From positions 62,001 through 126,000 of the IMG/VR virus record IMGVR_UViG_3300027759_004177: a stretch of 64,000 nucleotides of DNA. One strand, 5' to 3'. This document shows positions 8,184 to 51,649 of the stretch, piece after piece (within the stretch, counting starts at the first letter, position 1; each line of letters begins with the position of its first letter). The translations under genes and the position numbers were made by a program. The notes beneath the pieces are model-generated. The model was not told where the DNA came from. It ran no database searches and saw only the letters and a list, made by a program, of their open reading frames with translations. This DNA is from a virus.

Positions 8184-8891
8184 CTATTTGTCAAATGAAT
8201 TATAATCAATTTCAAATGGTGTATCTGCGTCAATAAACTGCGTCAAACGATCTGTTTTGAATCCGCTCAATCGCAACAATGCTCTAGTCCAGTAACCAAA
8301 ATTCATGGTGGCGTGTATGCCAGATTCTTTGTAGTGTTCCCAATAGGCAACTTCTCCGGCTTTCCAACGAGCCCACCATTGGTCTTGGTTGGTTTTTTCA
8401 TCATAAAACCAGATCAACTGTCCAGGCTTCCAATCTTCCAGCATGATCAACACACGACCCACTGAATTTTGATTGTCGTAAAATCTTTGGATTTCTTCGT
8501 CGGTAAAATCGTTTTTGCTCAAGGCTTGATCGCCAGAAGTAATATAACCCAGTTCGAGATTATCATTGTGTATGGGAATCATACAACCAGGTTGCAATAC
8601 CTGCACACGCCCGCCGGGTTTATGAAACCCCAGTATGTCACCTATACGATGCATCACTGACAAATCGGTCACAGTCCATTTGGTAGGATCTGGTGGGTCA
8701 GAAATTGTAACATCAACCTTGGGGTATCCATATTTTTCTACTAGATAATCCACTGGCCATTGGCGTGCTGCGATCTTGGCTTTTCTTAAAAAATCTGGTG
8801 AATTGGCCAAGGTGTTGGCACCCACAGTTTCTTTGGTCCAGGTCGTGAAATCTGGTATGTTTTTGATATGACCGATTATTTTATAACTCAT
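8184..8891 (-). CDS. putative 2OG/Fe(II) oxygenase-like protein
   Basis: Protein of 235 aa. H-x-D at about residue 112 (IPIHNDN), a beta-strand block (RVLIMLEDWKPGQLIW), a distal His (GIHATMNFGYWTR) and an Arg at the expected places of a jelly-roll oxygenase. The W-PGQ/SGH block is shared with the protein at 35762-36268, so the two are related. No ribosome site is seen, and the late promoter word at 8897-8904 lies only 5 bases upstream, so the message may be almost leaderless. Confidence 0.6.
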   Translation of the reverse strand: MSYKIIGHIKNIPDFTTWTKETVGANTLANSPDFLRKAKIAARQWPVDYLVEKYGYPKVDVTISDPPDPTKWTVTDLSVMHRIGDILGFHKPGGRVQVLQPGCMIPIHNDNLELGYITSGDQALSKNDFTDEEIQRFYDNQNSVGRVLIMLEDWKPGQLIWFYDEKTNQDQWWARWKAGEVAYWEHYKESGIHATMNFGYWTRALLRLSGFKTDRLTQFIDADTPFEIDYNSFDK

Positions 8892-8908: not shown

Positions 8909-9871
8909 TTATTTCTTCACAATAGATTGCATGGTGTTGAAAACTTTTTGTTGATTTTCCAACAGCATTTCTCTTGTGCCACCAAATGGTGCTGATGCCA
9001 ATGGTCCTAATCTTTTTTGGATTTCTGGATCGCTAAAACCTTTGGCCAACACCAGATATAAATCTCTGACTATGTGGTCAGGTGTTCCGGCTGGTGCCCA
9101 AACTCCAAAAATCGAAGATAACACAAAATTTGGATGATTTTTATTCAACCACACGGCCTTGGTTGCTGGAGGATTGAATTTATTGGCCATGTCTACCCCT
9201 GCTGGGTCAAATGCTCCAATGATTTTTAATTTTCCTGCTTTGACATGTGATTCCGGAACAGAAATGCTGTCAACTGCTATTTTGACATGGCCTCCCAGCA
9301 CATCGGTCAACACTGGACCAGATCCTTTGTAAACTATAAAATTGGGTTCTGGTAGTTTTTCTAGTTCTGCCCATTTTTTGTAGATTGGGGCCATGATGGC
9401 ACTGAATATGCCAATGTCAAACTTTTTGGGGTTTTGTTTTGCCCATGCAACAAATTCTGCATAGTTGTTGAAAGGTGCATCAGCACTGGCATATAAAACC
9501 TGGATACTTGGCACCACTGGAAAAACTGGTACGACACTTTTTGCGGTGTAAGTGGCAGTGGAATCATTTACTAGTCCTGTGTTAAAACTGGCAGTGGCCA
9601 CTACCATGAGATTGTGCCCGTCGGGTTCGGCTTTGGCAAAGTGGTTCATGCCAATCACACCACCAGCACCAGCCATGTTGGTCGTCACTGATTTCCAACC
9701 GTGTTTTTCAAGTATTTCGCTGGTCAGCCGTGCAATAACATCGTTGCTACCGCCCACGGGCCATGGAGTCATGACATCAATGGTTTTGGTAGGTTTGAAA
9801 TTTTGAGCAGATGCTAGGCCGACTGTTAAACCCAGTATCAGAGCGGCAAAGATTTTTGTGATTTTTTTCAT
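8909..9871 (-). CDS. Bug-family (tripartite tricarboxylate) substrate-binding protein
   Basis: Protein of 320 aa, normal for the family. Signal peptide 1-22 (MKKITKIFAALILG.. ASA), then the Bug/TctC pattern: PWPVGGSNDVIAR near residue 35, AGAGGVIGMNHFAKAEPDGH near 65-85, and a C-terminal AGTPDHIVRDL. Such proteins bind carboxylates or aromatics in the periplasm. None of the membrane partners (TctA/TctB) is in the window. Start chosen at the AAGGATC ribosome site, giving a clean signal peptide. Very common in Burkholderiales, unusual for a phage; probably acquired from the host. Confidence 0.9.
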   Translation of the reverse strand: MKKITKIFAALILGLTVGLASAQNFKPTKTIDVMTPWPVGGSNDVIARLTSEILEKHGWKSVTTNMAGAGGVIGMNHFAKAEPDGHNLMVVATASFNTGLVNDSTATYTAKSVVPVFPVVPSIQVLYASADAPFNNYAEFVAWAKQNPKKFDIGIFSAIMAPIYKKWAELEKLPEPNFIVYKGSGPVLTDVLGGHVKIAVDSISVPESHVKAGKLKIIGAFDPAGVDMANKFNPPATKAVWLNKNHPNFVLSSIFGVWAPAGTPDHIVRDLYLVLAKGFSDPEIQKRLGPLASAPFGGTREMLLENQQKVFNTMQSIVKK

Positions 9872-9911
9872 AGAAAGATCCTTTGATTTAGAAAATGTGT
9901 AACTAGATATA

Positions 9912-9940
9912 AGTTTACACTGAGCTAATAAAAAATGCAA
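9912..9940 (-). promoter_or_regulatory. sigma70-like promoter for the Bug receptor gene
   Basis: TTGCAT, 17 bases, TAAACT with a TG extension. Two near-identical 15-base direct repeats lie just upstream at about 9943-9979 (AGCAGAACTTTGGTG and AGCGGAACTTTGCTG). Confidence 0.55.
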
Positions 9941-10357: not shown

Positions 10358-10386
10358 ATTATATACTTATTAAGTTTCTGCGTCAA
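10358..10386 (-). promoter_or_regulatory. sigma70-like promoter of the tmRNA gene
   Basis: TTGACG, 17 bases, TATAAT inside the 3' end of 10370-11167. Transcription would start near 10351, just before the acceptor piece. Confidence 0.8.
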
Positions 10387-11167
10387 CCTTGGGTTTGGTA
10401 CGCCATTTTGCCAATTCGGATTCAAACTTTTGTTCTAGATCTGCGGTGATAACGGCCTGATCAACCTGTTGTCTTAGTTCATTAGCAAACGTTTCCAATT
10501 GGCCAATGTCGCCCATGTACTTGAACGTGTCTGTGACACGTCTAGTATCGTACGCATCCATGATTATGTGATAGCGGTCCTGATTTGAATCATTGCGAAT
10601 TTGATGCCAGACATTTACCCAAACCATGTAGGCCGTACCAGGTTCCATATACAACGTTTCTCCTTCGGCTGTGAAGGTACATGCAGGATTTGTAATCAGG
10701 GGTATGTGGATACGTGCCATATATTGGTTTTCACCACAATCTCTATGCACCAGACTCTTGCTACCAGCCTTCAGACAAGTTACCCTGGCTCGACGTGGTG
10801 TCAACCCAAATGCCTCAATTTGATCGATGGTCCGAGCAATCTCACCGCAATAGCCCTGTGTGGGTTTCTTGTATTCTAACGAATGTGCAATGTTAAAATA
10901 TTTCAAGGTAGTGTAATTGTTGGCATTTTTAGGAAAGAATACTTCTTCGATAGTGGTGCCTTCTTCGTTTTGAAAAAATTCCCAACCGTCTTGCCAGGCA
11001 CCAGTTTGACTCTGCAAACTCCATCCGCCAAATCCTTTATAGGCATCGGTTTCATATTCTTCGCCTTGCACGACTTGATTGCCCAAAGTAAACACATGAT
11101 TTTTTACATCGGCTACTAACCGGTCATGATCGTATTTGATAAAATTTAATTTTTCATAGAATGACAT
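10370..11167 (-). CDS. aspartyl/asparaginyl beta-hydroxylase-like protein
   Basis: Protein of 265 aa. H-x-D at about residue 142 (LVHRDCGENQ), strands ARIHIPLITN and GTAYMVWVN, distal His (VWHQIRN) and the 2OG Arg (DRYHIIMD) match the AspH-type jelly roll, which hydroxylates Asp/Asn side chains. C-terminal 50 residues are a charged helical extension. Last gene of the oxygenase block. Substrate unknown; virion or host proteins are possible. Confidence 0.75.
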   Translation of the reverse strand: MSFYEKLNFIKYDHDRLVADVKNHVFTLGNQVVQGEEYETDAYKGFGGWSLQSQTGAWQDGWEFFQNEEGTTIEEVFFPKNANNYTTLKYFNIAHSLEYKKPTQGYCGEIARTIDQIEAFGLTPRRARVTCLKAGSKSLVHRDCGENQYMARIHIPLITNPACTFTAEGETLYMEPGTAYMVWVNVWHQIRNDSNQDRYHIIMDAYDTRRVTDTFKYMGDIGQLETFANELRQQVDQAVITADLEQKFESELAKWRTKPKVDAET

Positions 11168-11176
11168 CGTACATCC

Positions 11177-11776
11177 TTATAGTGTATTTTTAAATGCTTG
11201 AGCAGCACTTTTATCAAATGTGCCCATGTTACTGGTTACGGATATCCTGGCCTGGCTGGAACAATTGGGTTCTACCATGTGTAATACAAACCCTGGAAAG
11301 AATACCAGTTTACCTTCTGCAGGCTGAATGCGACTAAACTTTGTGCCGTTAACGCCATCATTTCCTGAATCCCAGTCGCATCCATTGCGAGGATCTATTA
11401 GCAATAAGTCACCACAGTTTTCAGGAGCCTTAACATAATAGGTCATTGCAATCTTGGGGCTACCATGTCCATGTATGGGCATACCTTGACCAGGTCGGTG
11501 ATAGTTTATCCAGCCACGAGCATGCCAGAATTCAAATTCCTTGACAGTTGGTGCTATGTAATCGTATGTCTGTGCTTTGACTATTTTGATAGTGTAGTTT
11601 TTTAGTTCTTGTACTCGGGGACTATCGCAGTTCCAAATATTAGAGTTGCCAGCGTCGGCTTCAGGATCACAATATTGGCCAATTTCGTCAAGTAGTTCGT
11701 TGTTGAATTGTTCGTCAAAGTCGGTTTGTATTTCCCACACAGGGGTCACCCACATGTCTGTTTTAGTTATTTTCAT
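11177..11776 (-). CDS. putative 2OG-Fe(II) oxygenase (PF13759-like)
   Basis: Protein of 199 aa. Pattern of the phage 2OG-FeII_Oxy_5 family: H-G-H (MPIHGHGSP), YYVKAPENCGDL, then GKLVFFPGFVLHMVEPN with the distal His and ARISVTSN with the Arg. The same family is represented at 13931-14569. ATGA overlap with the upstream desaturase gene ties it to the block. Target unknown. Confidence 0.78.
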   Translation of the reverse strand: MKITKTDMWVTPVWEIQTDFDEQFNNELLDEIGQYCDPEADAGNSNIWNCDSPRVQELKNYTIKIVKAQTYDYIAPTVKEFEFWHARGWINYHRPGQGMPIHGHGSPKIAMTYYVKAPENCGDLLLIDPRNGCDWDSGNDGVNGTKFSRIQPAEGKLVFFPGFVLHMVEPNCSSQARISVTSNMGTFDKSAAQAFKNTL

Positions 11777-12471
11777 TTGAATTGAACCAAGTTGAGTCGA
11801 TTTAAAATCTGCAGATAGTAGAATCCCAAATCAAATTCATTTTTATTTACAGCCATGTTACACAGCCTGCTGTCTCTATGGTGATTGTTGTGTAGTTCTT
11901 CACCAACACACAGTATGCCTACAGGAACAACATTACGAGTATAGTCGCCTAGGTCAAAATTTTTGTAACCGATGCTATGACCAAATACTGTTATTGTTGC
12001 GATTGTTAAAAAATTTACCACAAACAAATGTACAATCCATACGAGAATTCCCAACCAACCAAACAACAGCATGTTGATTAACAATAACAATACAACTCCC
12101 AGTCTTGGATGCCGATCAATAACGGTGTCGGTAGATGCTTCCGCACAGTATCTATGATATTCTTGATCAGAAACTGTTATTTTATACGATCGAAAGAAAC
12201 TTGGAACTAGACAGCACCGCAACAAAGACCAAAAACCAAATCTAGGAGTATGAGGATCATTGTATGAATCCGAGAACTCGTGATGCTTTCTATGTTGTAC
12301 CACAAACTCTCGAGTAACCACATCAAACAAGATCCAATACATGATCTTCATTGCGGTTTCTACTCGCGGAGTCAGGTTGTATTGTCTGTGTATCATATAT
12401 CGATGCATGTACAGGGAAGCCAGCACACAGCCCAGGTGTATGGTCACAATGGTATAGATCAACATCAACAT
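11773..12471 (-). CDS. membrane fatty-acid desaturase (copy A)
   Basis: Protein of 232 aa with the three histidine boxes of acyl-CoA/lipid desaturases: HRYMIH near residue 23, HRKHH near 61 and HNNHH near 199, and hydrophobic helices between. It would insert a double bond in acyl chains using a di-iron centre. Shorter than bacterial DesA types. A second, more canonical copy is at 40538-41272. It overlaps the oxygenase genes on both sides, so is expressed with them. Confidence 0.85.
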   Translation of the reverse strand: MLMLIYTIVTIHLGCVLASLYMHRYMIHRQYNLTPRVETAMKIMYWILFDVVTREFVVQHRKHHEFSDSYNDPHTPRFGFWSLLRCCLVPSFFRSYKITVSDQEYHRYCAEASTDTVIDRHPRLGVVLLLLINMLLFGWLGILVWIVHLFVVNFLTIATITVFGHSIGYKNFDLGDYTRNVVPVGILCVGEELHNNHHRDSRLCNMAVNKNEFDLGFYYLQILNRLNLVQFK

Positions 12472-13022
12472 AGATTCAATATTTCTAAAACTTGATCATA
12501 CCCTAAATCGTTGGCAGAAACTTGTAAAAACTTTCTTGGCAAACAATTTGTAGAATCAACTCCATGGATGACCTTGCCGTTTAAAATGTACACATCTCCT
12601 GGATAGGCAACAAAACTATCTATTGGTTCTAATTCTTCTATGCGATATGCATGTCCATCACCGTGATCTGCGTAGGTAAACTTTGAAGCATTTTCCGTGC
12701 TTTTGTAAAATGTGGTTCGGTAGTCACCTGTTTCTATGTAGAAATTAATATTGACTTGGTCAACAATATCTGTATGTGGCGGCACTGAGGTTTCTATGTT
12801 AACAAAACTTGTGTAAAAATGTCGACTGTATTCACCAAGTGAAGCGATAAAACGGTCTACGTAATTGGAAGTGACATTAAAGTACTGTATTTTGTTGCCA
12901 TGCGTATCTAATTCAAATTCTATCCGTTTATCTAGAATTTCAAAATCAATGTCGGCAGACGCAGAAAGTTTTTTAAATCGAGAATGAACCATATTGTCGT
13001 AAAGATTCGTATACTGTTTCAT
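12465..13022 (-). CDS. 2OG/Fe(II) oxygenase-like protein
   Basis: Protein of 185 aa. H-x-D (VPPHTDIVDQ, about residue 83), VNINFYIE strand, GDVYILNGKVIHGV with the distal His, and RKFLQVSA with the Arg. Start uncertain: MKQYTNL at 13022 overlaps the previous gene by 50 bases, and an internal ATG at 12992 is the alternative; neither has a clear ribosome site. Same fold and layout as the next gene upstream. Confidence 0.65.
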   Translation of the reverse strand: MKQYTNLYDNMVHSRFKKLSASADIDFEILDKRIEFELDTHGNKIQYFNVTSNYVDRFIASLGEYSRHFYTSFVNIETSVPPHTDIVDQVNINFYIETGDYRTTFYKSTENASKFTYADHGDGHAYRIEELEPIDSFVAYPGDVYILNGKVIHGVDSTNCLPRKFLQVSANDLGYDQVLEILNLC

Positions 13023-13539
13023 AAGAAAGATCTGTAGTAAACGACAGGGCTTCTCTGTAGTTGGTTTTACTGAGTCCTTCTACGCTGTGTATCTTGCGAA
13101 TATTTAAAAGATATATGTCATGCTTGCGGGCCACAAATTGATCTTCTAACGCCAGATTATCGAGTTTGTAACTGCACTGACATTCTCCAGCACAAAACTT
13201 CTCTACTGTACACTCTGCACATGAAACTGGTTTGGGCTTGGTAAACTCTTCAGACTTTACAGAGAAGAACCGAGTCGGGCAGTTGTTTTCGCTCAGGTAT
13301 ATGTTTATTCTACAACCTATGTCTAGATCCACATGTGGATGTGCATTGTCACCAATGAATGTCATGTAGCTGAGATTAAAATTCTGCTTCAAGTGATCTG
13401 GCAACAGGATATTTCTGCTCAGGTTGGTACGGTAGTATCTGGTCCATCCGCCACCGCAAACGTGTTGTTCGCCCAGGTTTTCAAAGTTGTTGTACAGGCT
13501 TGGACTAATACTATCTAACTTAGTATAGTACCGATTCAT
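12973..13539 (-). CDS. 2OG/Fe(II) oxygenase-like protein with cysteine insertion
   Basis: Protein of 188 aa begun at MNRYYTKL, whose ATG overlaps the stop of 13536-13934 (ATGA). H-x-D (HPHVDLDIG), then a Cys-rich insertion C-x2-C-x6-C-x3-C-x-C near residues 110-125, then DIYLLNIRKIHSV and REALSFTT with the distal His and Arg. The cysteines could bind zinc or an iron-sulfur cluster, or the inserted segment could itself be modified. Not expected for a simple jelly-roll oxygenase. Confidence 0.6.
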   Translation of the reverse strand: MNRYYTKLDSISPSLYNNFENLGEQHVCGGGWTRYYRTNLSRNILLPDHLKQNFNLSYMTFIGDNAHPHVDLDIGCRINIYLSENNCPTRFFSVKSEEFTKPKPVSCAECTVEKFCAGECQCSYKLDNLALEDQFVARKHDIYLLNIRKIHSVEGLSKTNYREALSFTTDLSYETVYESLRQYGSFSI

Positions 13540-13934
13540 AGACGTGATTGGAACTCCACCATGGGTGTGGTATCTATGCCTTCTGCCACTACCTGGTCCA
13601 CAGGCTCGGGTATGTTGCGTGCCTGGGCCCACTCTCGGTATTGTGCCACGATAGGACTGGGAGTGTAGTCTATTCCGTCATGCGGATTCTTTAGTGCGTC
13701 ATAAAATTCGTTGCCATACACGATGTAGTTTATCAAAGGATCGCCGGGTAGCAAAAACACTTTGTCTAATATGACCGGGTATTGGTGACACATCTCAAAG
13801 AAACTGTTTCGTTCATCCTCAGTGAGATTGAACACAATGGCGCCAACTTCGGTGTCTAAAAAATACTTGACATACCGGTTGTAATCTTCAGCATCAAAGT
13901 TAACTGGTTGTTTGCCTACAATAATATCGCTCAT
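13536..13934 (-). CDS. phage hypothetical protein in the oxygenase block
   Basis: Protein of 132 aa, acidic, begins MSDIIVGKQPVNF. No motif recognised. ATGA overlaps on both sides with oxygenase-like genes indicate a shared job, perhaps as a partner or structural protein. Function unknown. Confidence 0.65.
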   Translation of the reverse strand: MSDIIVGKQPVNFDAEDYNRYVKYFLDTEVGAIVFNLTEDERNSFFEMCHQYPVILDKVFLLPGDPLINYIVYGNEFYDALKNPHDGIDYTPSPIVAQYREWAQARNIPEPVDQVVAEGIDTTPMVEFQSRL

Positions 13935-14569
13935 AAGTCCTTAATCCTTAACATACTGTTTATAAAACTTTTCAACACCAACCGATCTTTGCTGTCCTTG
14001 GTAAGGTCATGTTTAAAATCTGTAGTCAGGTTTACTCTACATCTCCCCAGGTTCATCTTGACTCCGTGTAGTACATATGATGGCAAAAATATCATGTCGC
14101 CATTTTTAGGGGTTATTGTTTTAATTTCAGTTCGGTGTTCACCGACTCGGCCGGTATCAACATAATAAAATTCACCACCAACATCTGGGCCCTGTATGTA
14201 GTAGCTACAGGCAATAGACGAATCAGGGTGTGCATGGAGTTCTATACGTTCTCCAGCTGTGTTTACATTAAGCCAGGCTCCCGACACAACAAATTCAGCT
14301 CGTTGTGTTGTTGGCATGTATTGATTGACAACCTCAGTGATTACCTCGGTCTTAAAATCAATCAATTCTTGTATACAGGGACTATCATAATCTAATAGAG
14401 ATTCTTTCCCTGAGGCTTCGTCAAACGTGCTGGCAATTTCGTAAAGTTCTCGTAACAACTCTTGATTAAATGATTCTGTAAACGGAGTCTTTTGGTGCCA
14501 CACCGGGCACTCCCACAACGAAGATTTCACACTACTGGCGAAAATACTTTCGTCAATGACCGTGGTCAT
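13931..14569 (-). CDS. putative 2OG-Fe(II) oxygenase (PF13759-like)
   Basis: Protein of 212 aa. H-x-H (IELHAHPDSS), CSYYIQGPDVGGEFYYVD, then GDMIFLPSYVLHGVKMN and CRVNLTTDF. Clearly the same family as 11177-11776. Its start overlaps the stop of the cysteine-rich virion-like gene by 4 bases, making that protein a natural candidate substrate. Confidence 0.78.
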   Translation of the reverse strand: MTTVIDESIFASSVKSSLWECPVWHQKTPFTESFNQELLRELYEIASTFDEASGKESLLDYDSPCIQELIDFKTEVITEVVNQYMPTTQRAEFVVSGAWLNVNTAGERIELHAHPDSSIACSYYIQGPDVGGEFYYVDTGRVGEHRTEIKTITPKNGDMIFLPSYVLHGVKMNLGRCRVNLTTDFKHDLTKDSKDRLVLKSFINSMLRIKDL

Positions 14570-15474
14570 TTTGCAGCCCTTTGTCCCACACGTTTAAAAC
14601 CAAAGCCTTTAAAGAACGAATAGATTCCAGCACCCGCCAAGGAGGTGTAATAGCTTAGATAAAACAACGCCCACATGGTGTACAAGGTTGGCAAACGATG
14701 GCGGCGTGACTTTTTGCCAACACGTGGCAAGCTGTCAACAAATCGACAAATAGGTTTACCAATCTCCATCAAGATACGACCTTGAACATTGTCTTCGGGC
14801 AATGCACCCATCAAGTAGGCCATGTGTTCTGACCATGGCGTACCAATCTTGATGGCCATGTCCGTGATACGATCTTTTTGTCGTGCCGCACGTTTTTCTG
14901 GGTCAGTGATCCAGGGCATGTACACCGGTCCTTTGCCGTCCATCCAGGCAGTTACAATTCTTGCCCAACGCACATAGCCGCGATACACTCGGCGATCTTT
15001 TTTGCGTAGCCATTGCCCGTACATTTGATCCGCGGCCCAGATGTTTTGATTCATTAGACCAAAGTCGTATAACTTGGCACAAATAATCTTGGAGCAGTTG
15101 CAGGCACAGTTACAGGCATAAGATGTGGTTGTACTGGTACAGTTATATGTGCAGGCACAGTTACAGTTGTTCTGTAACCAACTCTGTGTGTCACAGTTGC
15201 CACAATTGATTTGACCAGTTATGAGACAATTTGTGCAATTTATGTTACCGCAGTTGCAATTTGCAGTACAGTTACCATTGGCACAGTTGGCGCCATCGGC
15301 AGTATTTTGGAAATAGGCTTTGTTATAAAATGCCGTCATACTGGGATTGGCCGGACGCTGGTCGCTACGAATTAATCCATTGAGGAAATTTAAATCTGTA
15401 GAGAAAGTGGCAGCCTGCCCAATTTCGGTGCTGACGTCGCCAACTGCAATTTGTCCGGATGCTGGTAGTGTCAT
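14566..15474 (-). CDS. virion-like protein with 17-cysteine segment, candidate radical SAM substrate
   Basis: Protein of 302 aa. Residues 1-50 (MTLPASGQIAVGDVSTEIG) match the opening of many T4-like tail/virion proteins. Residues 64-132 hold 17 cysteines in short C-N-C, C-x2-C and C-A-C steps set in Asn, Gly and Thr. The remaining 170 residues are basic and aromatic, with a likely membrane helix near 265-290 (LYTMWALFYLSYYTSLAG). The gene lies directly downstream of a radical SAM/SPASM enzyme and overlaps an oxygenase, so the Cys segment may be cross-linked or metal-loaded. Late promoter word at 15495-15502. Confidence 0.75.
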   Translation of the reverse strand: MTLPASGQIAVGDVSTEIGQAATFSTDLNFLNGLIRSDQRPANPSMTAFYNKAYFQNTADGANCANGNCTANCNCGNINCTNCLITGQINCGNCDTQSWLQNNCNCACTYNCTSTTTSYACNCACNCSKIICAKLYDFGLMNQNIWAADQMYGQWLRKKDRRVYRGYVRWARIVTAWMDGKGPVYMPWITDPEKRAARQKDRITDMAIKIGTPWSEHMAYLMGALPEDNVQGRILMEIGKPICRFVDSLPRVGKKSRRHRLPTLYTMWALFYLSYYTSLAGAGIYSFFKGFGFKRVGQRAAK

Positions 15475-15486
15475 GGTAAATTCTCT

Positions 15487-16941
15487 TTATTGAGTATTTA
15501 TGACTGATTCCACCCGACTTTGACCATACACTTCAATTCCTTCGATCTCGCCAACTACTTCACTGACAATTTTGATAGGTATGACTCGTTTCTTTTCAGT
15601 TTCTGTGTGTTCATATATGGTACCAAACACGTCTTGCCGTTCCAAGGGCAACTCGTCCTGTTTGATCAGGGTGGGAATATAACCCGTTATTTTCTCTACA
15701 GCCAGGGCAAACAAGGCCACATTGTCCGAATAGCTGTTGGCACAGCTGACATCCCAGAATTCTTTGTCCAAGAACATGCAGGCACCTTTGCAAAGGTGTA
15801 GTACCGGGCACTTGGGACATTCAGCACGATTTGACCAGTGTGTTGATGTTTTGATAGCCACGTTGTCATAATCGTCTAAATTACCGCCCAAATGGCTTTC
15901 TCCGTTTTTGCCGGTTTCTAGACTGCTGACGTTTTGACAAGTCATCACATTACCACGCAGGTCGATTGCCAACACATGCTCGTCGTCCATGCCGCACTTT
16001 TGTCCTAAGAATTTGGATTCGTCGTGCGCCAGCACGTTTCTAATGAATCCATCGATCTTGTCCAACTGCATCTTGAATCCAATTTGTCCTTGTGTACTAA
16101 AAATATCAGCAAAGGCTGTGCGACGAAATTCAAAATGTTGCTGTTTGGTTTGCAGGCTGTTTTGCATGCCATCAGCATCGTAACTGTCTACAATGCCGCC
16201 TTCGCCCAGAGACACATTGGGGTCTCCTGTGAATTCCACAAACCAGTCATAAATCCGTTTTCTGCTGATGTTTTGTGCATTGAGCATGGGATTAAAGCTA
16301 AAGCCTTTTTTGAGTCTGCTCATCTGACGATAAAATCCCAGGATCTGTTTTTTCTTTTCGGGATCCGCAAACGGATCAGGTCCACGCACATGTTGTCCAG
16401 GACCATCGTGGCTGATTGATACTGTAAAGTTCAATTTCATTAGCCAATCAATTATTTCCTCATTGAGTATGCTGCCATTGGTAATCACACTGAACTGTGG
16501 TTTATGTTTCCAGCCACTAAATTTTTCCAAGATAGCTTCAGCCAAAGGTTTGAGTGTTTTCCAGTAAACAAATGGTTCTCCACCCCAGAACTCAATCTTG
16601 AGGCCTTGGGTTTCATCAAACTCTAGCACTTTGAATTTTTCTAAAAAAACGTCAATGTCTTTCTTTGAAGTTTCTGGAGCACGTTCCACGAACTTCTGTG
16701 AGCAGTAATCGCAAGAGTAATTACAGCTGAGTCCCAACTGTATCTTTAATAGCTGTATCGCACGGCTTTTCTTCAATGGACGATCGCGATCAAAAGCAAC
16801 ATATGGCTTCAAATTGTGTTTGTGTATCTGTGGATATTCAAATACCGTACCATCCTCACTTTTTAAAGTGTTGGTTTCGTTATCGTAATAAAAGATTTTT
16901 TTGTCTGCGGCTGAACGCTCAGCATGAATTTCAAATAGCAT
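15487..16941 (-). CDS. radical SAM/SPASM protein-modifying enzyme
   Basis: Protein of 484 aa. The radical SAM cluster motif C-x3-C-x2-C is at residues 73, 77 and 80 (CNYSCDYC), followed by KIEFWGGEP (SAM-binding GGE). The C-terminal third has a SPASM cysteine set (CGMDDE, CQNVSS, CPKCPVLHLCKGAC, SCANSY) for auxiliary iron-sulfur clusters. Closest in style to anaerobic sulfatase-maturating enzymes and to peptide maturases that make thioether or C-C links. Twelve bases before the cysteine-rich virion-like gene. AAGGAAG ribosome site. Confidence 0.9.
   Translation of the reverse strand: MLFEIHAERSAADKKIFYYDNETNTLKSEDGTVFEYPQIHKHNLKPYVAFDRDRPLKKSRAIQLLKIQLGLSCNYSCDYCSQKFVERAPETSKKDIDVFLEKFKVLEFDETQGLKIEFWGGEPFVYWKTLKPLAEAILEKFSGWKHKPQFSVITNGSILNEEIIDWLMKLNFTVSISHDGPGQHVRGPDPFADPEKKKQILGFYRQMSRLKKGFSFNPMLNAQNISRKRIYDWFVEFTGDPNVSLGEGGIVDSYDADGMQNSLQTKQQHFEFRRTAFADIFSTQGQIGFKMQLDKIDGFIRNVLAHDESKFLGQKCGMDDEHVLAIDLRGNVMTCQNVSSLETGKNGESHLGGNLDDYDNVAIKTSTHWSNRAECPKCPVLHLCKGACMFLDKEFWDVSCANSYSDNVALFALAVEKITGYIPTLIKQDELPLERQDVFGTIYEHTETEKKRVIPIKIVSEVVGEIEGIEVYGQSRVESVINTQ
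15495..15502 (-). promoter_or_regulatory. late promoter word CATAAATA
   Basis: Seven of eight bases of TATAAATA, 20 bases upstream of the cysteine-rich protein start and inside the end of the radical SAM gene, so the substrate candidate can be transcribed separately. Confidence 0.55.
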
Positions 16942-42363: not shown

Positions 42364-42524
42364 CCGGGGCGACACAAATTGGATTTGGCACCGTTTAAAC
42401 TATACATACTGATCCACTTGTCGACTTCGCTGCCATATTCGGGCATACGGTACGGCAAGAAATACAACTGTAAAAACCACCATACATAATTATCAATATA
42501 AAAATCAATTAGGTTATTTCTCAT
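42360..42524 (-). CDS. 54-aa aromatic-rich small protein
   Basis: MRNNLIDFYIDNYVWWFLQLYFLPYRM.. amphipathic and aromatic N-terminus, polar C-terminus with one Cys. Overlaps the cyclase stop by 11 bases; ribosome site weak. It may bind the membrane. Function unknown. Confidence 0.5.
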   Translation of the reverse strand: MRNNLIDFYIDNYVWWFLQLYFLPYRMPEYGSEVDKWISMYSLNGAKSNLCRPG

Positions 42525-44565
42525 GAGCTATGAATTCCCCATTCCAGTTTGCTGGTAGGTCTTGTTGCTTCATAAAGTCGCAACGTTCAATCCATATCTT
42601 ATAGTACTTGTCCATTTGTCCACCAAAGTTGCCTGTTAACTTTTTGCACATGGCGGCCGCTTCATTGAATTTTTTCTGACGGTACAGGTCATGCATTACA
42701 TCGTGTGCTTCCTTGTCTTTGCTGTAATCTTCACCTCGAGTACGTAATACTGTATAGATTAAGTCTGCTACTGTCTTGCCTTTTGGTTGTAAGTTATCCA
42801 ACAGCAAGTAGAAGAAATCATCTTTAGTTCTGTTGTATGTTTCAGCACCGATAATGGCCAACACACCGTAAGCCTTACAACGTGCTTCTAGTCGGGCGGC
42901 TGTACTAACCATGTCACCCAAGATATCATAACTGTGTCGGTCGGTTGAACCCATCTCACCAATGAACCCAACACCTGTGTTACAGCCCCAGCCCATTGCA
43001 GCTGGCGGCAAGCCTTGTGCTTCCATTTCTTTGGTATAAGCATCTACAGCGTCTAACATTTCTAAACCTACTTTGACAATAGTTCTAGCATGATCAGGAT
43101 CGTCTATAGGCGCACCATGAATGTGCATACTTGCATCACCCACATACTTGATAACCATACCCCGGTTGTCCATGATAGGTTTTGAAATAGCATCCATGTA
43201 ACCGTTCATGTATTTGCCTAATCCGCCTACATCATCGCCATAGTGTTCGCCAATTGGTGTAAAGCCACGTAAGTCACTAAACATAACACTTACGTCTTTA
43301 CGCACACCACGTTTGATCAAGTCAGGATCTTTCTGTAACATCTCCACAACTTCTTTTGAACAGTAACCAGCAAACTGTTTCTTTATGGCTTGCTTTTGTA
43401 AGAACTCGCTTACAAACTTAACACCGTAAGCATGAAGGAGAATAACAGTGAGGCCGCCAGCAAGGGCAGTAATGTCAAATAGCCAAGCATTAGCCGTGTA
43501 AACGTACTGAGATACAGGATACAAAATACCAAGAGCGATAACACCAGTAGCAAGTCCAACATATACATACCTCGTTAAAAATAATAATACGATACCTAAA
43601 ACCACAATAGCAATGATCTCAGCACCATCGGCCCAGTCGGGTCTTGATATTGCTGGACGATCTTTGTTGGCAATAACTGTGCCTAATACTGCGGCCTGTA
43701 AATCTTGTGGTAACATTTCGCCCAGGCTTGTGGCTACAGGGTTTGCTAGACCTTGCGCCGACACACCAACAATAACGATTTCACCATCAAAGTCTCGGGG
43801 CAAGTTGGTTAGGCTATAACGCTCTGGTGTCAAGCTCCAGTCAATCCATATACGACTCAAGCTGTCTGTGGTCACAGGACCAAATGCTGGAATTCGCATT
43901 TTCTCAACACCCTGCTCATTGATTTTAACTTGGAAGGTTGAGTCGCCTGCAGCCACACGCATGACTTCCATGGCCAGGCTTGGATACAATCGACCGTTGT
44001 AAGCAACTACCAGTGGCATACGACGCACAACACCGTCAACTTCCGGAAACGTGTTAACAACACCAACTCCGGCAGCGGCCGTTTCTACACTGGGAATGTT
44101 AGCGATAAGCCCCGGATAGGTCACAAACGCATCTAAACCAAATGGTCCAATTACTGCTGATCCTGGAGCTCGTGGTTGATTTCTTGTCGTTGTTGATCCA
44201 ATGCTAGGAAGTACCGTTGGGTATTGTTTTAACGCTTGCACATACGCAGTATCTTGCCCCATACGGTCTTTATCTGGAGTAAGAATATTAAACACAACAA
44301 GACCAGCATTACGTCTGTAAAGGTCTCGAATAATGGCACCGTATGTATCACGGGAAAAAGGAAATTGCCCATATCGTTCTAATGCTTTCTCATCTATGTT
44401 TACTACACTGACCCCGATCGTTTCGGCAGGTCGGCTAGTAACAAGTGTATCGAAATAGCGTAGCCTTACGCTTTCAACAAACATAGGATCTGCAACACGC
44501 AAGCCCACAATGATTGCTAGTGTTAATAGAGCAGTCCAAGGACTGATTAAGATTTTTTTGAACAT
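42514..44565 (-). CDS. CHASE2-domain membrane adenylate cyclase
   Basis: Protein of 683 aa. N-terminal membrane helix, extracytoplasmic CHASE2 sensor (about 30-305), three membrane helices (about 316-380), then a class III cyclase domain (about 420-610). Metal Asp in MFSDLRGF (432) and YVGDAS (478); adenine-selecting Lys474 and Asp548 are present; Arg559 is in AARLE. The transition-state Asn normally in V-N-x-A-x-R is Ser (MVSTAARLE), so activity may be lowered. A tail of 70 residues looks TPR-like. Would make cAMP in response to a periplasmic signal. Confidence 0.88.
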   Translation of the reverse strand: MFKKILISPWTALLTLAIIVGLRVADPMFVESVRLRYFDTLVTSRPAETIGVSVVNIDEKALERYGQFPFSRDTYGAIIRDLYRRNAGLVVFNILTPDKDRMGQDTAYVQALKQYPTVLPSIGSTTTRNQPRAPGSAVIGPFGLDAFVTYPGLIANIPSVETAAAGVGVVNTFPEVDGVVRRMPLVVAYNGRLYPSLAMEVMRVAAGDSTFQVKINEQGVEKMRIPAFGPVTTDSLSRIWIDWSLTPERYSLTNLPRDFDGEIVIVGVSAQGLANPVATSLGEMLPQDLQAAVLGTVIANKDRPAISRPDWADGAEIIAIVVLGIVLLFLTRYVYVGLATGVIALGILYPVSQYVYTANAWLFDITALAGGLTVILLHAYGVKFVSEFLQKQAIKKQFAGYCSKEVVEMLQKDPDLIKRGVRKDVSVMFSDLRGFTPIGEHYGDDVGGLGKYMNGYMDAISKPIMDNRGMVIKYVGDASMHIHGAPIDDPDHARTIVKVGLEMLDAVDAYTKEMEAQGLPPAAMGWGCNTGVGFIGEMGSTDRHSYDILGDMVSTAARLEARCKAYGVLAIIGAETYNRTKDDFFYLLLDNLQPKGKTVADLIYTVLRTRGEDYSKDKEAHDVMHDLYRQKKFNEAAAMCKKLTGNFGGQMDKYYKIWIERCDFMKQQDLPANWNGEFIAHEK

Positions 44566-44569
44566 CAAG

Positions 44570-46603: not shown

Positions 46604-48637
46604 TTAAAAACTAAAACGAGCCTCTATCATAGCACTTTGTACTATGTAATCATATTGTTTGCCATAACCATAACGTAGGCGCACAACACTCTTTGGATCA
46701 ATTGCATATCCAACACTGGCGTAGGCTGTGTTAAAGTTTTGACTGTTGTAAGCATACTCACCTGTTACACGCCAGTCTGTAGCAACCGTGGCGTCATAAC
46801 GTACACCAATGTCTGTGCTGGTCTTGTTTGTGTTGACTGCGTCATATGTCATAGCAGTTAAACTACTACCAGATTCTGCGACCCCGTTGCGACGATTGGT
46901 TTCGTTACGCACACCAACAAAGGGACGTATGTCATTCCACTCTGGTGTGTAAACACGAGCAGTTGCCCACAAGTCTTGACCTTTGGTTGAACTTGTATTT
47001 GCCATGCCCAGTTCAGGTAAACTGTGATTGGTATCAAATGTGTTGGCAGCATAACCAATGTCGTTTTTAAAGATCCAGTCATTGACTGTGTAAGCACTAT
47101 AAATGCCTACGTGGTCTTTGTTTAAACTACCACCTGCATTTGTGCCTGCGGCACCATTTAGGTTAGCCTGACCACGATTGTATTGACCGCCAATGATCCA
47201 GTTTGGAGCAACTTGCCAGTCGTAACCCAGGCCGTATGTCATGCTCTTGTACGAGTAACCACCCACAGAGTTTGATTGGCCGGCGCTGCCTGTCACATAA
47301 AAGGTGTTGCGTTCTGATACATTGAAGTCACCACCCAGCACACGATTGCGATCTAACACATTGCTGTCTAACATGTAGTTCATTGCCTGATTGACATTGC
47401 TCAACTGACTGTATTGATCCACGCGAGTTGAATAGTCATTGGTTTGAATTGCCTGACTGATTTCATTGCCCGATGCACTATTAGAACTGACTGAGTCGGT
47501 TGTGCTCACGGTAACTACAGGAGTTCCATTTGTCACTGTTTGAGTGCCATCGCTGTAAGTTGTGGTAGTCACAGGAGTTGTGGTTGTTGTGACAGTCACA
47601 GGAGTTGTGGTTGTTTGTGTAACTGTAAATGGTGTTGTTACAGTGGTTGTTTTTGTTTGTGTAACTGTCAATGTCTTGGCAGTTTGAGCACCTCTTGCGT
47701 TGTCAATGGCCAAGGCCGCTGCCGCTGTACCGTAAGCAATACTGTTGGTAACTGCGGCGGTCCCGGTTGTGGTTGTTGTGGTAACCGAGTCGACTGTTGT
47801 TGTGCCGGTCACTGTTGGGGCCGAAGGTGGAGGAGTTGGATCTACTGAGGGTGCAACACTACCTGGGTTAGGTGCCACAGCACCAAATGTCTCGCCATTT
47901 TTTGTTACTGTGCCGATTGCATCATTGACCTGTAGCACCGGACTCAGTGCAGTATCACCCTGATTGAATACACCAAAGCCCACTTTGTATGTGCCTGCTG
48001 TTAAAATGTCAAACTGTGCCAACTGCCAACCTGTTGAGCCATAACTGCCAGTTGAGTAGTTGCCTGTGTTGGGGTTGGTAGCACCCAGTAGGGCGTACTG
48101 TCCCAGTACGTTATTGACCTTACCGAATGTGTCGGCTGATCCTGTGTTGACCAAAGTGGCAATACTGCCATCGTTAAACGGCACATAGTCTGTGCTGGTA
48201 TATACCCAGGCCATTTTAAATGTGGCTGGTGCTGTGAATGTGAAATCTTTACTGATCCAAGCAGAACTGGTGATGCCGCCGCCCTGTGACGCTACCAAAG
48301 AATTTAAACTACTAATACTTGAACTGCTCAAACCCAATGCGGTAGTCATTGCAGAATAGTTTTGTTGGCCGCCCGGTTGCATGCCAACCATGTAACTGCC
48401 TGTGTATGGATTGATATTCCATGTGTTAGGACCACAGCAACTAATAGTTTGTGTTCCACTGGTAGTGCTCACACCAATACCGCTTTGCATGTATGGGCCT
48501 GTTTGTGTGCCTGTTCCGCCACCTGCGGTCCAACCGTTGAGGTTGCCGGTGCCAAAACTGTAATCTTGTGTTTGTGCCTGTGCTGAAAAAGCCAGGCATG
48601 CTGCAAAAGCCGCTAGGGCTGTTGTGAAAAACTTCAT
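46604..48637 (-). CDS. outer-membrane beta-barrel surface protein (autotransporter-like)
   Basis: Protein of 677 aa. Signal peptide 1-21 (MKFFTTALAAFAACLAFSAQA). Residues 22-245 form a beta-sandwich like exported lectin/PEP-CTERM domains (GWTAGGGTG, TFKMAWVYTST). Residues 255-390 are a Thr/Val-rich low-complexity stalk. Residues 420-677 form a barrel with alternating strands (WIIGGQYNRGQANL, WRVTGEYAYNSQNF) ending in Phe, the outer-membrane insertion signal. It lies at the end of the curli-like locus. A hairpin covers its ribosome site. Confidence 0.8.
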   Translation of the reverse strand: MKFFTTALAAFAACLAFSAQAQTQDYSFGTGNLNGWTAGGGTGTQTGPYMQSGIGVSTTSGTQTISCCGPNTWNINPYTGSYMVGMQPGGQQNYSAMTTALGLSSSSISSLNSLVASQGGGITSSAWISKDFTFTAPATFKMAWVYTSTDYVPFNDGSIATLVNTGSADTFGKVNNVLGQYALLGATNPNTGNYSTGSYGSTGWQLAQFDILTAGTYKVGFGVFNQGDTALSPVLQVNDAIGTVTKNGETFGAVAPNPGSVAPSVDPTPPPSAPTVTGTTTVDSVTTTTTTGTAAVTNSIAYGTAAAALAIDNARGAQTAKTLTVTQTKTTTVTTPFTVTQTTTTPVTVTTTTTPVTTTTYSDGTQTVTNGTPVVTVSTTDSVSSNSASGNEISQAIQTNDYSTRVDQYSQLSNVNQAMNYMLDSNVLDRNRVLGGDFNVSERNTFYVTGSAGQSNSVGGYSYKSMTYGLGYDWQVAPNWIIGGQYNRGQANLNGAAGTNAGGSLNKDHVGIYSAYTVNDWIFKNDIGYAANTFDTNHSLPELGMANTSSTKGQDLWATARVYTPEWNDIRPFVGVRNETNRRNGVAESGSSLTAMTYDAVNTNKTSTDIGVRYDATVATDWRVTGEYAYNSQNFNTAYASVGYAIDPKSVVRLRYGYGKQYDYIVQSAMIEARFSF

Positions 48638-49088: not shown

Positions 49089-50531
49089 TTATTGTCTTAC
49101 GGTTATTACCCCGCATCCGCCGGCTGTCACACAGGTTGTTGTTATGTTATATACTGCTCCACCCGATTGTATCAGATCTACTGACCCCGGACCGCCTGAG
49201 TTGTTGATTGTGATTGAAGCACGATTAGCCGTGGCTCCTTCTTGTACTGCTGTTATGGTATTGCCATTGCCAGTTAGAGTACTTTCCAGATAGTGTTGTC
49301 CGCCATCTTTTTGTACAACCGACACAGTATTGTTGTTGCCTGTGACTGTGTTGAACAAGGTTTTGTTGGCATTATTGGTCTGCGTGGCATTTACTGTGTT
49401 GGTATTACCGTTGATAGTGGTTTCCATATAGTGTCCACCCACACCGCCAGTGTTGTTTTGTTGCGTGGTCACAGAATTGTAATAACCAGTAACATCCACA
49501 CGCTGATAGTGATTGTTAGAACTGTTGGTTGATGTTCCTGTGGCAGTTACACTTTGATTCAAATTTAAAACGTTGTTGCCGCCTACCACACGCATTTCTA
49601 TTGTGTTTTTACCTGCGGTATCTAGGTCGCCTTGGCGTACAGTAATGCTATTACTACTGCCTTGTATCTGTACAGCCTGTTGCCCTATGCCCTTGAGTTC
49701 GTTGGCACGACCTGATTGCGTGACATTAACGGTATTGTTATCACCCACTTGATCTATGTATATGGTGTTGTTGACCACGCTTTTGGTTTGAAACGCTGTA
49801 ACTCTGGACTGTTGTTCGGTTGTAATATTGGCTGTGTATGTGGGTGCTGGAGGTGGCGCACTATATCCTCCAGCGGATCCACTGGTAGAACCGCCTGTGA
49901 CCGAGTAGTTACCGCCATTGACTGGTGCTCCGTTGTTTATAACGCAGGTTTGTGTTCCGCTGTATAGGGCACAACTTTGCCAGCCATTGCTACTGGTCCA
50001 GCCTTGAGCATAGCCGTTGGTTCCGTACACACCAAATCCTGGGTTATATAAAATGTTAGGGCCGCCGTTAAAACTCAAACTTGGGTCGATAATATACGGT
50101 CCATAGTTGCCGGCCCAGTAGCCGCCGTCTTTGCCATAGAACTCTACCTTAACATACGCAACTGAGGCACAGCTTCCACCACAGTTGGTAGTTGTTAGTG
50201 TATATGTTGTGGGGGCGGTAGCTCCGTAGACCAAGGTGTTGGCCTGCTGTACTGTGTTAACGATTTGGTTGCTGCTATTATAAAAAACCAGTCTTATGGT
50301 AAACGGATCGCCCGGAGCACGACCACCACCATCCATTGCCTGCACAGAAAGAGTTAGTGTTCCGCCGGTCTGCATGGCACTATCGAAAACCACAGTCTGA
50401 CTGACTGTTGCAAAGTTGTAGCCCATCTTAAGGGCATTAGACGTTGTTTGTGCTTTTACCAAACCCAAACAGGACAGCTCTAACAAGGCCACAGCAAAAA
50501 TTATCAACAGGTATGTAAACAATCTTTTCAT
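49089..50531 (-). CDS. curlin-repeat surface protein
   Basis: Protein of 480 aa. Signal peptide about 1-27. Residues 28-230 form a beta-sandwich with a Cys pair (CGGSCA). Residues 245-480 contain curlin-type repeats of the form x-x-G-N-x-N-x-V-x-x-x-Q (QVGDNNTVNVTQSG, TGNNNTVSVVQKD, LTGNGNTITAVQEG). Such repeats stack into amyloid. May be a minor or nucleating fibre subunit (CsgB-like role, inferred). TAATG overlap with the FecR-domain gene. Confidence 0.8.
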   Translation of the reverse strand: MKRLFTYLLIIFAVALLELSCLGLVKAQTTSNALKMGYNFATVSQTVVFDSAMQTGGTLTLSVQAMDGGGRAPGDPFTIRLVFYNSSNQIVNTVQQANTLVYGATAPTTYTLTTTNCGGSCASVAYVKVEFYGKDGGYWAGNYGPYIIDPSLSFNGGPNILYNPGFGVYGTNGYAQGWTSSNGWQSCALYSGTQTCVINNGAPVNGGNYSVTGGSTSGSAGGYSAPPPAPTYTANITTEQQSRVTAFQTKSVVNNTIYIDQVGDNNTVNVTQSGRANELKGIGQQAVQIQGSSNSITVRQGDLDTAGKNTIEMRVVGGNNVLNLNQSVTATGTSTNSSNNHYQRVDVTGYYNSVTTQQNNTGGVGGHYMETTINGNTNTVNATQTNNANKTLFNTVTGNNNTVSVVQKDGGQHYLESTLTGNGNTITAVQEGATANRASITINNSGGPGSVDLIQSGGAVYNITTTCVTAGGCGVITVRQ

Positions 50532-51649
50532 TAGTTCTGCCTTAGTGTTATTGTAGTTCCACCGCCTGAGTTTACACGATTTTTAATTTCTATACTGCCT
50601 TGTATCTGATAAATTGTGGTGTTTTGATTTTTAGGCACAGTCACACTTTGTACATTGCTTCCATCGTCTCTGGTCAAGTTCACTGAGTAGTCATCCACTG
50701 ATGCTACAACACCCGTGGTGGCCACATAGTCCGGTAACAATCCACTTTTAGCTGTGTTTAAAAAATCCAATTGAGCAGCCATCTGTGCGTTGATGATATC
50801 TAAGATATTGGCTAAGAGATTCTGATCTAGCAAACTGGTACTAAGAAAATCTTTAAAATGTGTTTCTTGGGCTGTCAACATGTTGACCAAGCCATTTTCA
50901 CGTAAAAAATCTACATCCAAGGCTCCTTTAGCAACGGCTCGTTGTGTAGTTTGAACTTCATTGAGTTCTTTGGGCGGTGCCACAATCAACATGTTGTTGA
51001 TGGCATCAGGGGAGAGATTGACTATGACCGGACGTGTGGGGAAACTTGAGCGTGTTTCTATCTTGGTGGCTTGAAATGGTTTATTTAATATTACACTACC
51101 AGCATCGTTGCTGACTGATATTTCTCCAGTTTTACAATCACGTTCCACATTGACCCAACCACGTGGACAACTGGGCAACAAGATTATAGTTGATGCACCC
51201 AGCTCGTCTACTGTAGCAGTAAAGTCTGTACCGCGTACACCAACAGTAGCGGTAGGAGTATTAAGGGCAACATTTTGAGGACTGTTTTTAGCGATCTGTC
51301 CTGACGCATATCTCACTGTTCCTGCGGCCACATTGACTGCTAACTTGCCGCCTTTGGTTGACTTGGGATCGTATACAAAATCGTCAATGACCAACCTGCT
51401 GTTTTCATTGACCTGTACTTTGGTATCATCGGCAAAAGTTATGCCAACTTTACCCGCTGTGGTTTTTACCGCGTCCTGCATCTCCACTCGAGTTCCCTTG
51501 GTCCCAGTGAGCGTCGTCTTCTGTCGTTGTATCGAAGGCGGGCTGTTCACTTGCTCCGTTATGGTACCAATCGCGGCTTCTAAGTTCATGGATGTACTCA
51601 GCAAGAGTACGCATAGTGTCAGGTTGCATAATTTGTTCCCCTTATACAT
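50531..51649 (-). CDS. FecR-domain secreted protein
   Basis: Protein of 372 aa. Signal peptide 1-25. Residues 60-165 are a FecR beta-domain: VGITFADDTKVQVNENSRLVIDDF, GTVRYASGQIA and TPTATVGVRGTDFTA. The C-terminus TTITLRQN resembles the end of a curlin repeat. FecR domains bind peptidoglycan or assemble at the envelope. Its place between curlin genes suggests a role in fibre anchoring or nucleation. Confidence 0.82.
   Translation of the reverse strand: MYKGNKLCNLTLCVLLLSTSMNLEAAIGTITEQVNSPPSIQRQKTTLTGTKGTRVEMQDAVKTTAGKVGITFADDTKVQVNENSRLVIDDFVYDPKSTKGGKLAVNVAAGTVRYASGQIAKNSPQNVALNTPTATVGVRGTDFTATVDELGASTIILLPSCPRGWVNVERDCKTGEISVSNDAGSVILNKPFQATKIETRSSFPTRPVIVNLSPDAINNMLIVAPPKELNEVQTTQRAVAKGALDVDFLRENGLVNMLTAQETHFKDFLSTSLLDQNLLANILDIINAQMAAQLDFLNTAKSGLLPDYVATTGVVASVDDYSVNLTRDDGSNVQSVTVPKNQNTTIYQIQGSIEIKNRVNSGGGTTITLRQN

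Follow-up and report, generated by a model that had tools for sequence, protein, structure and literature searches.

Why should a virus encode, in one tight chain of genes, a radical S-adenosylmethionine (SAM) enzyme of the SPASM type, a cysteine-rich protein and a series of oxygenases? The question is raised by a 64,000-nucleotide stretch of viral DNA, here termed the window, which covers positions 62,001 to 126,000 of the 356,865-bp IMG/VR record IMGVR_UViG_3300027759_004177. The chain lies on the minus strand and begins with the radical SAM/SPASM enzyme (484 amino acids; 15487..16941), followed by the Cys-rich protein (302 amino acids; 14566..15474), its predicted substrate. With a probability of roughly 0.8, this chain represents a phage tailoring cassette resembling those that make ribosomally synthesized and post-translationally modified peptides (RiPPs), but acting on a virion tail or fiber protein and not on a small secreted peptide. 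What defines it is a portable Asn-Cys repeat, in most cases located at the very C-terminus of a tail fiber.

Pairing of the SPASM enzyme with an Asn-Cys repeat

The Cys-rich protein consists of an N-terminal SGxIxxxDvxxElG...FY motif, the Asn-Cys module (approximately residues 60-128) and an all-helical C-terminal domain (127-290). Encoded by NCANGNCTANCNCGNINCTNC...NCNCACNCSKIIC (15079..15288, minus strand), a region of local AAYTGYRMYTGY match excess, the module is predicted to be disordered, with a predicted local distance difference test (pLDDT) score below 50. The 17 Cys that the original prediction placed at residues 64-132 are present there, and an 18th lies near residue 244. At an E value of 0.5, the protein matched no Pfam, PHROG or NCBIfam model. 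Selection at the protein level acts on its Cys codons. When the window is compared with its relative L003, 18 of 18 Cys are retained although 7 codons changed silently, and across the module 25 silent changes stand beside 7 that alter an amino acid. Because the Cys persist through silent codon changes, chance or low-complexity DNA was rejected as an explanation of the module.

Separation of the two genes in relatives would have spoken against the system as first conceived. Examined from both gene directions and with a negative control, the pair was found to be kept together. Homology scans of IMG/VR yielded 47 loci with the enzyme as query and 60 with the Cys-rich protein, and the two genes adjoin in nearly all of them, the exceptions being truncated contigs or proteins related through the C-terminal domain only. 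Two layouts occur. In the long layout, the enzyme is followed by the Cys-rich gene and accompanied by jelly-roll and AspH genes; in the short layout, a protein ending in the Cys module directly precedes the enzyme (L035, L037-L045, L100-L103). When 159 enzyme loci were reduced to 96 at 92% identity, the Cys family was present at 87 of the 96.

The pair is also found in Achromobacter phage JWF; the JWF and window enzymes share 44% identity. Two genes upstream of the JWF enzyme is a gp36-like fiber that reads ...NCNCDCNCNCS and then passes directly into a Hint domain. Achromobacter phage 2-1 is organized in the same way, and in both phages the pair is placed beside the tail protein Tal; among 50,697 phage records, the enzyme was found in these two only (E 1e-15). 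Because of this arrangement, viral contigs were scanned for the bare DNA pattern NCNCNCNC, independently of homology. Among the matches listed, 93 of 105 open reading frames (ORFs) carry the pattern no more than 30 residues from the C-terminus, and a SPASM-enzyme gene accompanies 75 of these 93, in 75 of 75 cases downstream on the same strand at a distance of 9 bp to 5.4 kb. Of the 18 listed ORFs without the enzyme, 16 have less than 2.7 kb of downstream sequence. A control scan with NGNGNGNG found the SPASM enzyme at 0 of 116 loci among the matches listed (median stretch 7.3 kb vs 10.4 kb), and the listed counts of 75/93 and 0/116 give a Fisher value of 7e-40 for loci that are not fully independent.

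The association holds when the enzyme is taken as the starting point. Thirteen diverse enzymes used as queries retrieved at least 564 relatives in viral contigs, and among the 79 new loci that were kept, a CxCxCxC protein lies upstream in 63 (63 of 67 where upstream sequence suffices); 12 of the 16 loci without such a protein have less than 1.5 kb upstream. A comparison of 45 distinct copies of the window protein's C-terminal domain separates the module from the remainder of the protein. Copies with the Cys module have the enzyme in 36 of 38 cases, both exceptions being cut by contig ends, whereas copies lacking the module have it in 0 of 7 (p = 8e-7). The enzyme is therefore tied to the module and not to the rest of the protein. 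In one copy, from Synechococcus phage SynMITS9220M01 (L105:4669-6519), polyglycine and long poly-Pro and poly-Arg runs replace the Cys module before the C-terminal domain.

These counts bear on two alternatives. The SPASM enzyme might modify a different neighbor, with the Cys repeat serving merely as a co-inherited binding surface. One candidate is F3, a protein with a C-terminal segment that reads as immunoglobulin-like and with no family match, which belongs to the typical operon order of fiber, F3, 2-oxoglutarate (2OG) oxygenase and SPASM enzyme, and which is adjacent at 39 of 96 non-redundant loci. However, F3 is found in only 4 of 102 window-type loci and is not Cys-rich, and the repeat is the sole sequence common to all loci; modification of another neighbor is thus very improbable. 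A second possibility is that the Asn-Cys repeats bind metal, in the manner of metallothioneins or Fe-S proteins, and stabilize trimeric tips, while the radical SAM gene nearby has a metabolic role of its own. Metal in fiber tips has precedent in the iron held at HxH motifs of T4 gp37, and the CxC spacing of the repeats is suitable for metal binding. Additionally, several phage 2OG and radical SAM genes have been interpreted as metabolic genes (PMC3037559, PMC7150976). A metal site would not need a SPASM partner, yet one is tied to the repeat in 75 of 93 loci among the matches listed and in 63 of 79 loci of the enzyme-first scan. Moreover, 7 of 7 relatives without the module lack the enzyme as well, and gene order and strand are fixed, all of which makes this metal-binding alternative unlikely.

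Tail fibers as carriers of the repeat

Three observations support assigning the Cys-rich protein to the virion, as a part of the tail: relatives match tail fibers, a DUF4815 tail protein has the same C-terminal domain, and in the cultured phages the pair adjoins Tal. The window protein itself is linked to tail proteins only via its C-terminal domain, which matches the phage DUF4815 tail protein. Repeat carriers elsewhere match tail-fiber families, including collagen-like and gp36-like ones. PHROG tail-fiber matches were obtained for L142, L132, L107, L179, L147 and L151, and no match for the L553 fiber. Once the tail is removed, the carrier bodies sort into eight or more unrelated families. 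Most carriers are 100-690 amino acids long, and the few of 67-98 amino acids have tail-protein-like sequence.

The repeat usually makes up the final 8-40 residues of a tail fiber, and in the window protein it is internal, a module some 70 residues long that precedes the helical domain. Across 101 tails, Asn precedes 531 of approximately 695 Cys; in window-type modules, the Cys spacing is irregular. In some carriers the repeat is followed by a further domain, either Hint (JWF, 2-1, L088, L561) or a Peptidase_S74 chaperone domain (L034). Hint and Peptidase_S74 are self-cleaving families, and their position directly after the repeat suggests that self-cleavage could turn the repeat into the mature C-terminus, that is, the fiber tip. 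The original prediction was borne out in part, with support for a virion protein; what it overlooked was the portable, usually C-terminal form of the repeat and the wide spread of the system.

The operon of fiber, F3, 2OG oxygenase and SPASM enzyme is also found in two Burkholderiales prophages (L553, L554), the NCNC fiber of the high-GC L554 having been identified by six-frame reading. Genomes were surveyed for the enzyme at a threshold of E at most 1e-60. Of 399 genomes from the order to which a Paraburkholderia genome belongs, 6 had it, as did 2 of 289 from the class of a Rhodospirillales metagenome-assembled genome (MAG); the latter two (L561, L562) carry both fiber and enzyme. None was detected among 296 genomes from the order of an Erwinia genome or among 297 from the phylum of a Chitinophaga MAG. 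Among the six Paraburkholderia-order cases, the more distant L556-L558 have no CxC tail, and none was seen in L555 either. The radical SAM relative in L557 adjoins a gene that reads as a C39-type peptide exporter. In bacterial genomes the pattern is mostly simple-repeat noise without the enzyme. A genome pattern scan of 117 loci found no radical SAM gene within the 8-kb stretches, but L351 is a true case with the enzyme just outside its stretch. Radical SAM genes of Campylobacter phages CPt10 and CP21 were excluded as distant, with no CxC protein near them. Short proteins ending in HTHxFxDDYxTxCNCNCNC(T/S)RGxL occur in L112, L153, L118, L161 and L177, and in L112 and L153 three or four consecutive radical SAM genes lie nearby.

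The enzyme, its accessory genes and their setting

The window enzyme matches PF04055 (6.5e-10; 39.9 bits vs 29.5) and phrog_1802 (2.4e-66). It contains the radical SAM motif CX3CX2C as CNYSCDYC and the SPASM Cys as CGM...TCQN...CPKCPVLHLCKGACM...SCANSYSDN, and the SPASM model TIGR04085 scores 33.2 bits against a cut-off of 27. The Cys of CNYSCDYC together with C316, C335, C375, C378, C384, C388 and C400 are invariant among 12 relatives, so that both sets of cluster Cys that characterize radical SAM/SPASM proteins are in place. The enzyme reached no curated cut-off of the NCBIfam maturase families searched (PapB, SCIFF, CcpM, nif11 and others), the best being PapB with 79.8 bits against 340, and five further phage enzymes likewise score below the cut-offs of known maturase families. 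The QhpD model TIGR03906 matches at 6.7e-18, well under its family cut-off. The nearest families and solved structures are peptide or protein maturases, mostly cross-linking ones (PapB, QhpD, SCIFF/CteB, anaerobic sulfatase-maturating enzyme [anSME]).

Under the tailoring model, the SPASM enzyme would act on the Asn-Cys repeat encoded beside it, coupling the Cys sulfur to the backbone or beta carbon of neighboring residues, most commonly Asn, and so producing thioether cross-links. Ruminococcin C contains an Asn35-Cys22 thioether (PMC8188230), and because Asn is thus a known acceptor, Cys-Asn thioethers are the leading guess for the bond type, with about even chances of being right. The same tip may then be oxidized or decorated by accessory oxygenases, by a desaturase or, in other phages, by a flavin halogenase, and the outcome would be a stiff fiber tip of unusual chemistry for host adsorption. 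Cross-linking at the Cys-rich region, as originally envisaged, is plausible on sequence grounds, and a "hardened or adhesive" virion part may be the result. The tip may serve in adsorption or in its own stability. Fiber ends made of NC repeats, together with a nearby radical SAM enzyme of the peptide-cross-linking type, occur in many uncultured phages and probably denote tips of non-standard, enzyme-made chemistry.

Two other radical SAM activities could be imagined for the same repeat. An epimerase would convert alternating N-C-N-C into alternating D/L residues and a beta-helix, the fold suggested for polytheonamide and other proteusins. Many tails do show strict N/C alternation, 2OG oxygenases accompany proteusin clusters too, and the radical SAM epimerase YydG/EpeE (8ai3, 5e-5) is among the weak structural relatives of the enzyme. 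Cross-linking SPASM enzymes are closer matches, however, and epimerization is at odds with the irregular Cys spacing of window-type modules and leaves the near-constant Cys without explanation, which renders it improbable. Alternatively, the enzyme could oxidize Cys to formylglycine like anSME, giving aldehyde tips that react with host surface amines. The JWF radical SAM gene is in fact annotated as an anSME, and the solved structures nearest to the enzyme include anSME at 1e-7. However, the window enzyme scores 51.6 with the anSME model TIGR03942, far under the cut-off of 349; anSME alters one Cys and not an array; and the CxPxR or CxAxR motif that anSME requires is absent from the repeats. 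Formylglycine formation is accordingly the more remote of the two.

Every gene that the original prediction had listed was found, forming one minus-strand chain from 16941 to 10370 with overlaps of 4-50 bp and gaps of 12 and 9 bp. Two 2OG-Fe(II) oxygenases of the PF13759 type are encoded at 13931..14569 (PF13759 1.7e-10, phrog_81 5.3e-22) and 11177..11776 (PF13759 1.7e-14, phrog_81 9.1e-30). Such oxygenases are present at 36/120, 49/79 and 62/102 loci, compared with 1/120 controls. Between them lie U132 (13536..13934), a conserved 132-amino acid protein of unknown function that recurs at 25 of 96 non-redundant radical SAM loci and 0 of 120 controls, and two jelly-roll oxygenase-like paralogues, JR219 (12973..13539) and JR185 (12465..13022). 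The start of JR219 is most likely the ATG at 13539 (MNRYYTKLD) rather than an upstream GTG, which corrects the earlier gene start. In the jelly-roll alignment, H69-x-D71...H151 and R162 are invariant in 24 relatives, and the JR219 model (pLDDT 89.6) matches cupin, JmjC and 2OG oxygenase folds with TM scores of about 0.4. JR219 and JR185 accordingly have the HxD...H facial triad and Arg, on a predicted double-stranded beta-helix, of 2OG-Fe(II) oxygenases and may use 2OG. JR219 also carries a SPASM-like Cys insert, CAECTVEKFCAGECQC (C-x2-C-x5-C-x3-C-x-C), absent from the JR185 clade and with 4 of 5 Cys kept in the distant L017 and L073; it is possibly a zinc or Fe-S site.

The chain continues with a DesA-like desaturase (11773..12471) that has three His boxes, HRYMIH, HRKHH and HNNHH (PF00487 7.6e-11; NF049918 7e-48, below its cut-off), and ends with an AspH-like aspartyl/asparaginyl hydroxylase (10370..11167; PF05118 6.4e-13, 49.3 bits against a gathering score of 22.6). 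Desaturases recur beside the pair, the AspH-like gene is present at 26 of 96 non-redundant loci, and among window-type loci jelly-roll genes occur in 65/102 and AspH in 63/102. Elsewhere, L034 has a tryptophan-halogenase-like gene (PF04820 8.7e-93) and L184 another 2OG oxygenase (PF13640). The predicted hydroxylation is supported only through the co-occurrence of oxygenases with the pair, and the set differs between phages; the oxygenases are thus accessory, and the SPASM/Cys pair is the core. Family f26 (e.g., L045:12564-13700), which recurs at 9 non-redundant loci on the downstream side of the enzyme, has a SGGIDST ATP-pyrophosphatase-like motif and no Pfam match. A 235-amino acid protein of the window (8184-8891, minus strand) with an HND...HATMN...R pattern, possibly an AspH-like oxygenase, is found only in the near-identical strain L002/L051.

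Several points weigh against the tailoring model. Control loci were matched by scan method and not by phage type, and many loci come from similar phages, so that raw counts overstate independent events. In the window protein the module is internal and not C-terminal, and CxC repeats could bind metal instead. No oxygenase is universal across loci, the set being variable, and oxygen-dependent and oxygen-sensitive enzymes stand within one operon. Furthermore, since all maturase family cut-offs are missed, the chemistry is not readable from family membership.

The downstream limit of the chain is marked by a transfer-messenger RNA (tmRNA; 10400-10012, minus strand) of betaproteobacterial type (RF01850 144.5 bits, tag ANDEQFALAA), the 5ʹ end of which extends into the region where the AspH-like gene stops and which suggests a betaproteobacterial host. 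An Rfam search of the leader upstream of the radical SAM gene gave no match. Adjoining the tmRNA, a gene at 8909-9940 (-) reads as a Bug/TctC-type periplasmic receptor. Farther away are a CHASE2 sensor fused to an adenylate/guanylate cyclase (42514-44568 (-); PF05226 2.7e-38, PF00211 3e-14), also in phrog_35576; an autotransporter beta-domain protein (46604-48637 (-); PF03797 2e-14); and curli-type genes for a protein containing a curlin repeat (49089-50531 (-)) and a CsgG-like curli secretion protein (52473-53807 (-); PF03783 8.7e-42), beside which is a protein matching phrog_37870 at 1.7e-145 (50531-51649).

Relation to known systems

In the open-access PMC literature, preprints excluded, no description was found of an Asn-Cys fiber repeat with a dedicated SPASM enzyme, nor of any virus whose virion proteins are altered by radical enzymes. 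A Cys-rich target adjoins the maturase, as in RiPP clusters, whereas a short leader-bearing precursor and release of a small core were not found. The system thus resembles a RiPP cassette in its workings but departs from known RiPP families in both its large target and its enzyme scores under the family cut-offs; the enzyme fold itself is known. The odds somewhat favor a widespread phage class with receptor-binding tips made from Asn-Cys repeats remodeled by cross-links and by hydroxylation, desaturation or halogenation, in which case part of the so-called auxiliary metabolic genes would represent virion-tip chemistry. If so, phages harden or functionalize the tip that touches the host by natural-product-like chemistry beyond the 20 amino acids, many phage "metabolic" genes would be reassigned to virion assembly, and Cys-rich phage proteins of unknown function would be explained. 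The system would also supply new peptide-modifying enzymes for long folded proteins that bear a short, portable C-terminal tag, and the cultured Achromobacter phages JWF and 2-1 open it to direct testing.

The closest parallels are the SPASM thioether RiPP maturases (RumMC2/ruminococcin C, PapB, SCIFF/CteB), which share the placement of the enzyme beside a Cys-rich target and the same cluster motifs. Unlike these, the present system is phage-encoded, is directed at the tail or module of a large virion fiber without a separate small precursor, and scores far under the NCBIfam maturase cut-offs. QhpD and anSME resemble it in sequence and are SPASM enzymes that act on a protein and not on a small peptide, QhpD making thioethers; however, their substrates are different, the scores are under the family cut-offs, and no sulfatase motif is present. 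Phage fibers with C-terminal auto-processing are likewise related, in that some carriers have Hint or Peptidase_S74 domains just past the repeat; to this the present system adds the Asn-Cys repeat with a SPASM enzyme of its own. Lastly, both window oxygenases belong to the PF13759/phrog_81 family of T4-like cyanophage 2OG-Fe(II) oxygenases, which are usually interpreted as nitrogen-stress or DNA-repair genes (PMC3037559, PMC7150976), whereas the window-type oxygenases are linked to fiber-modification operons.

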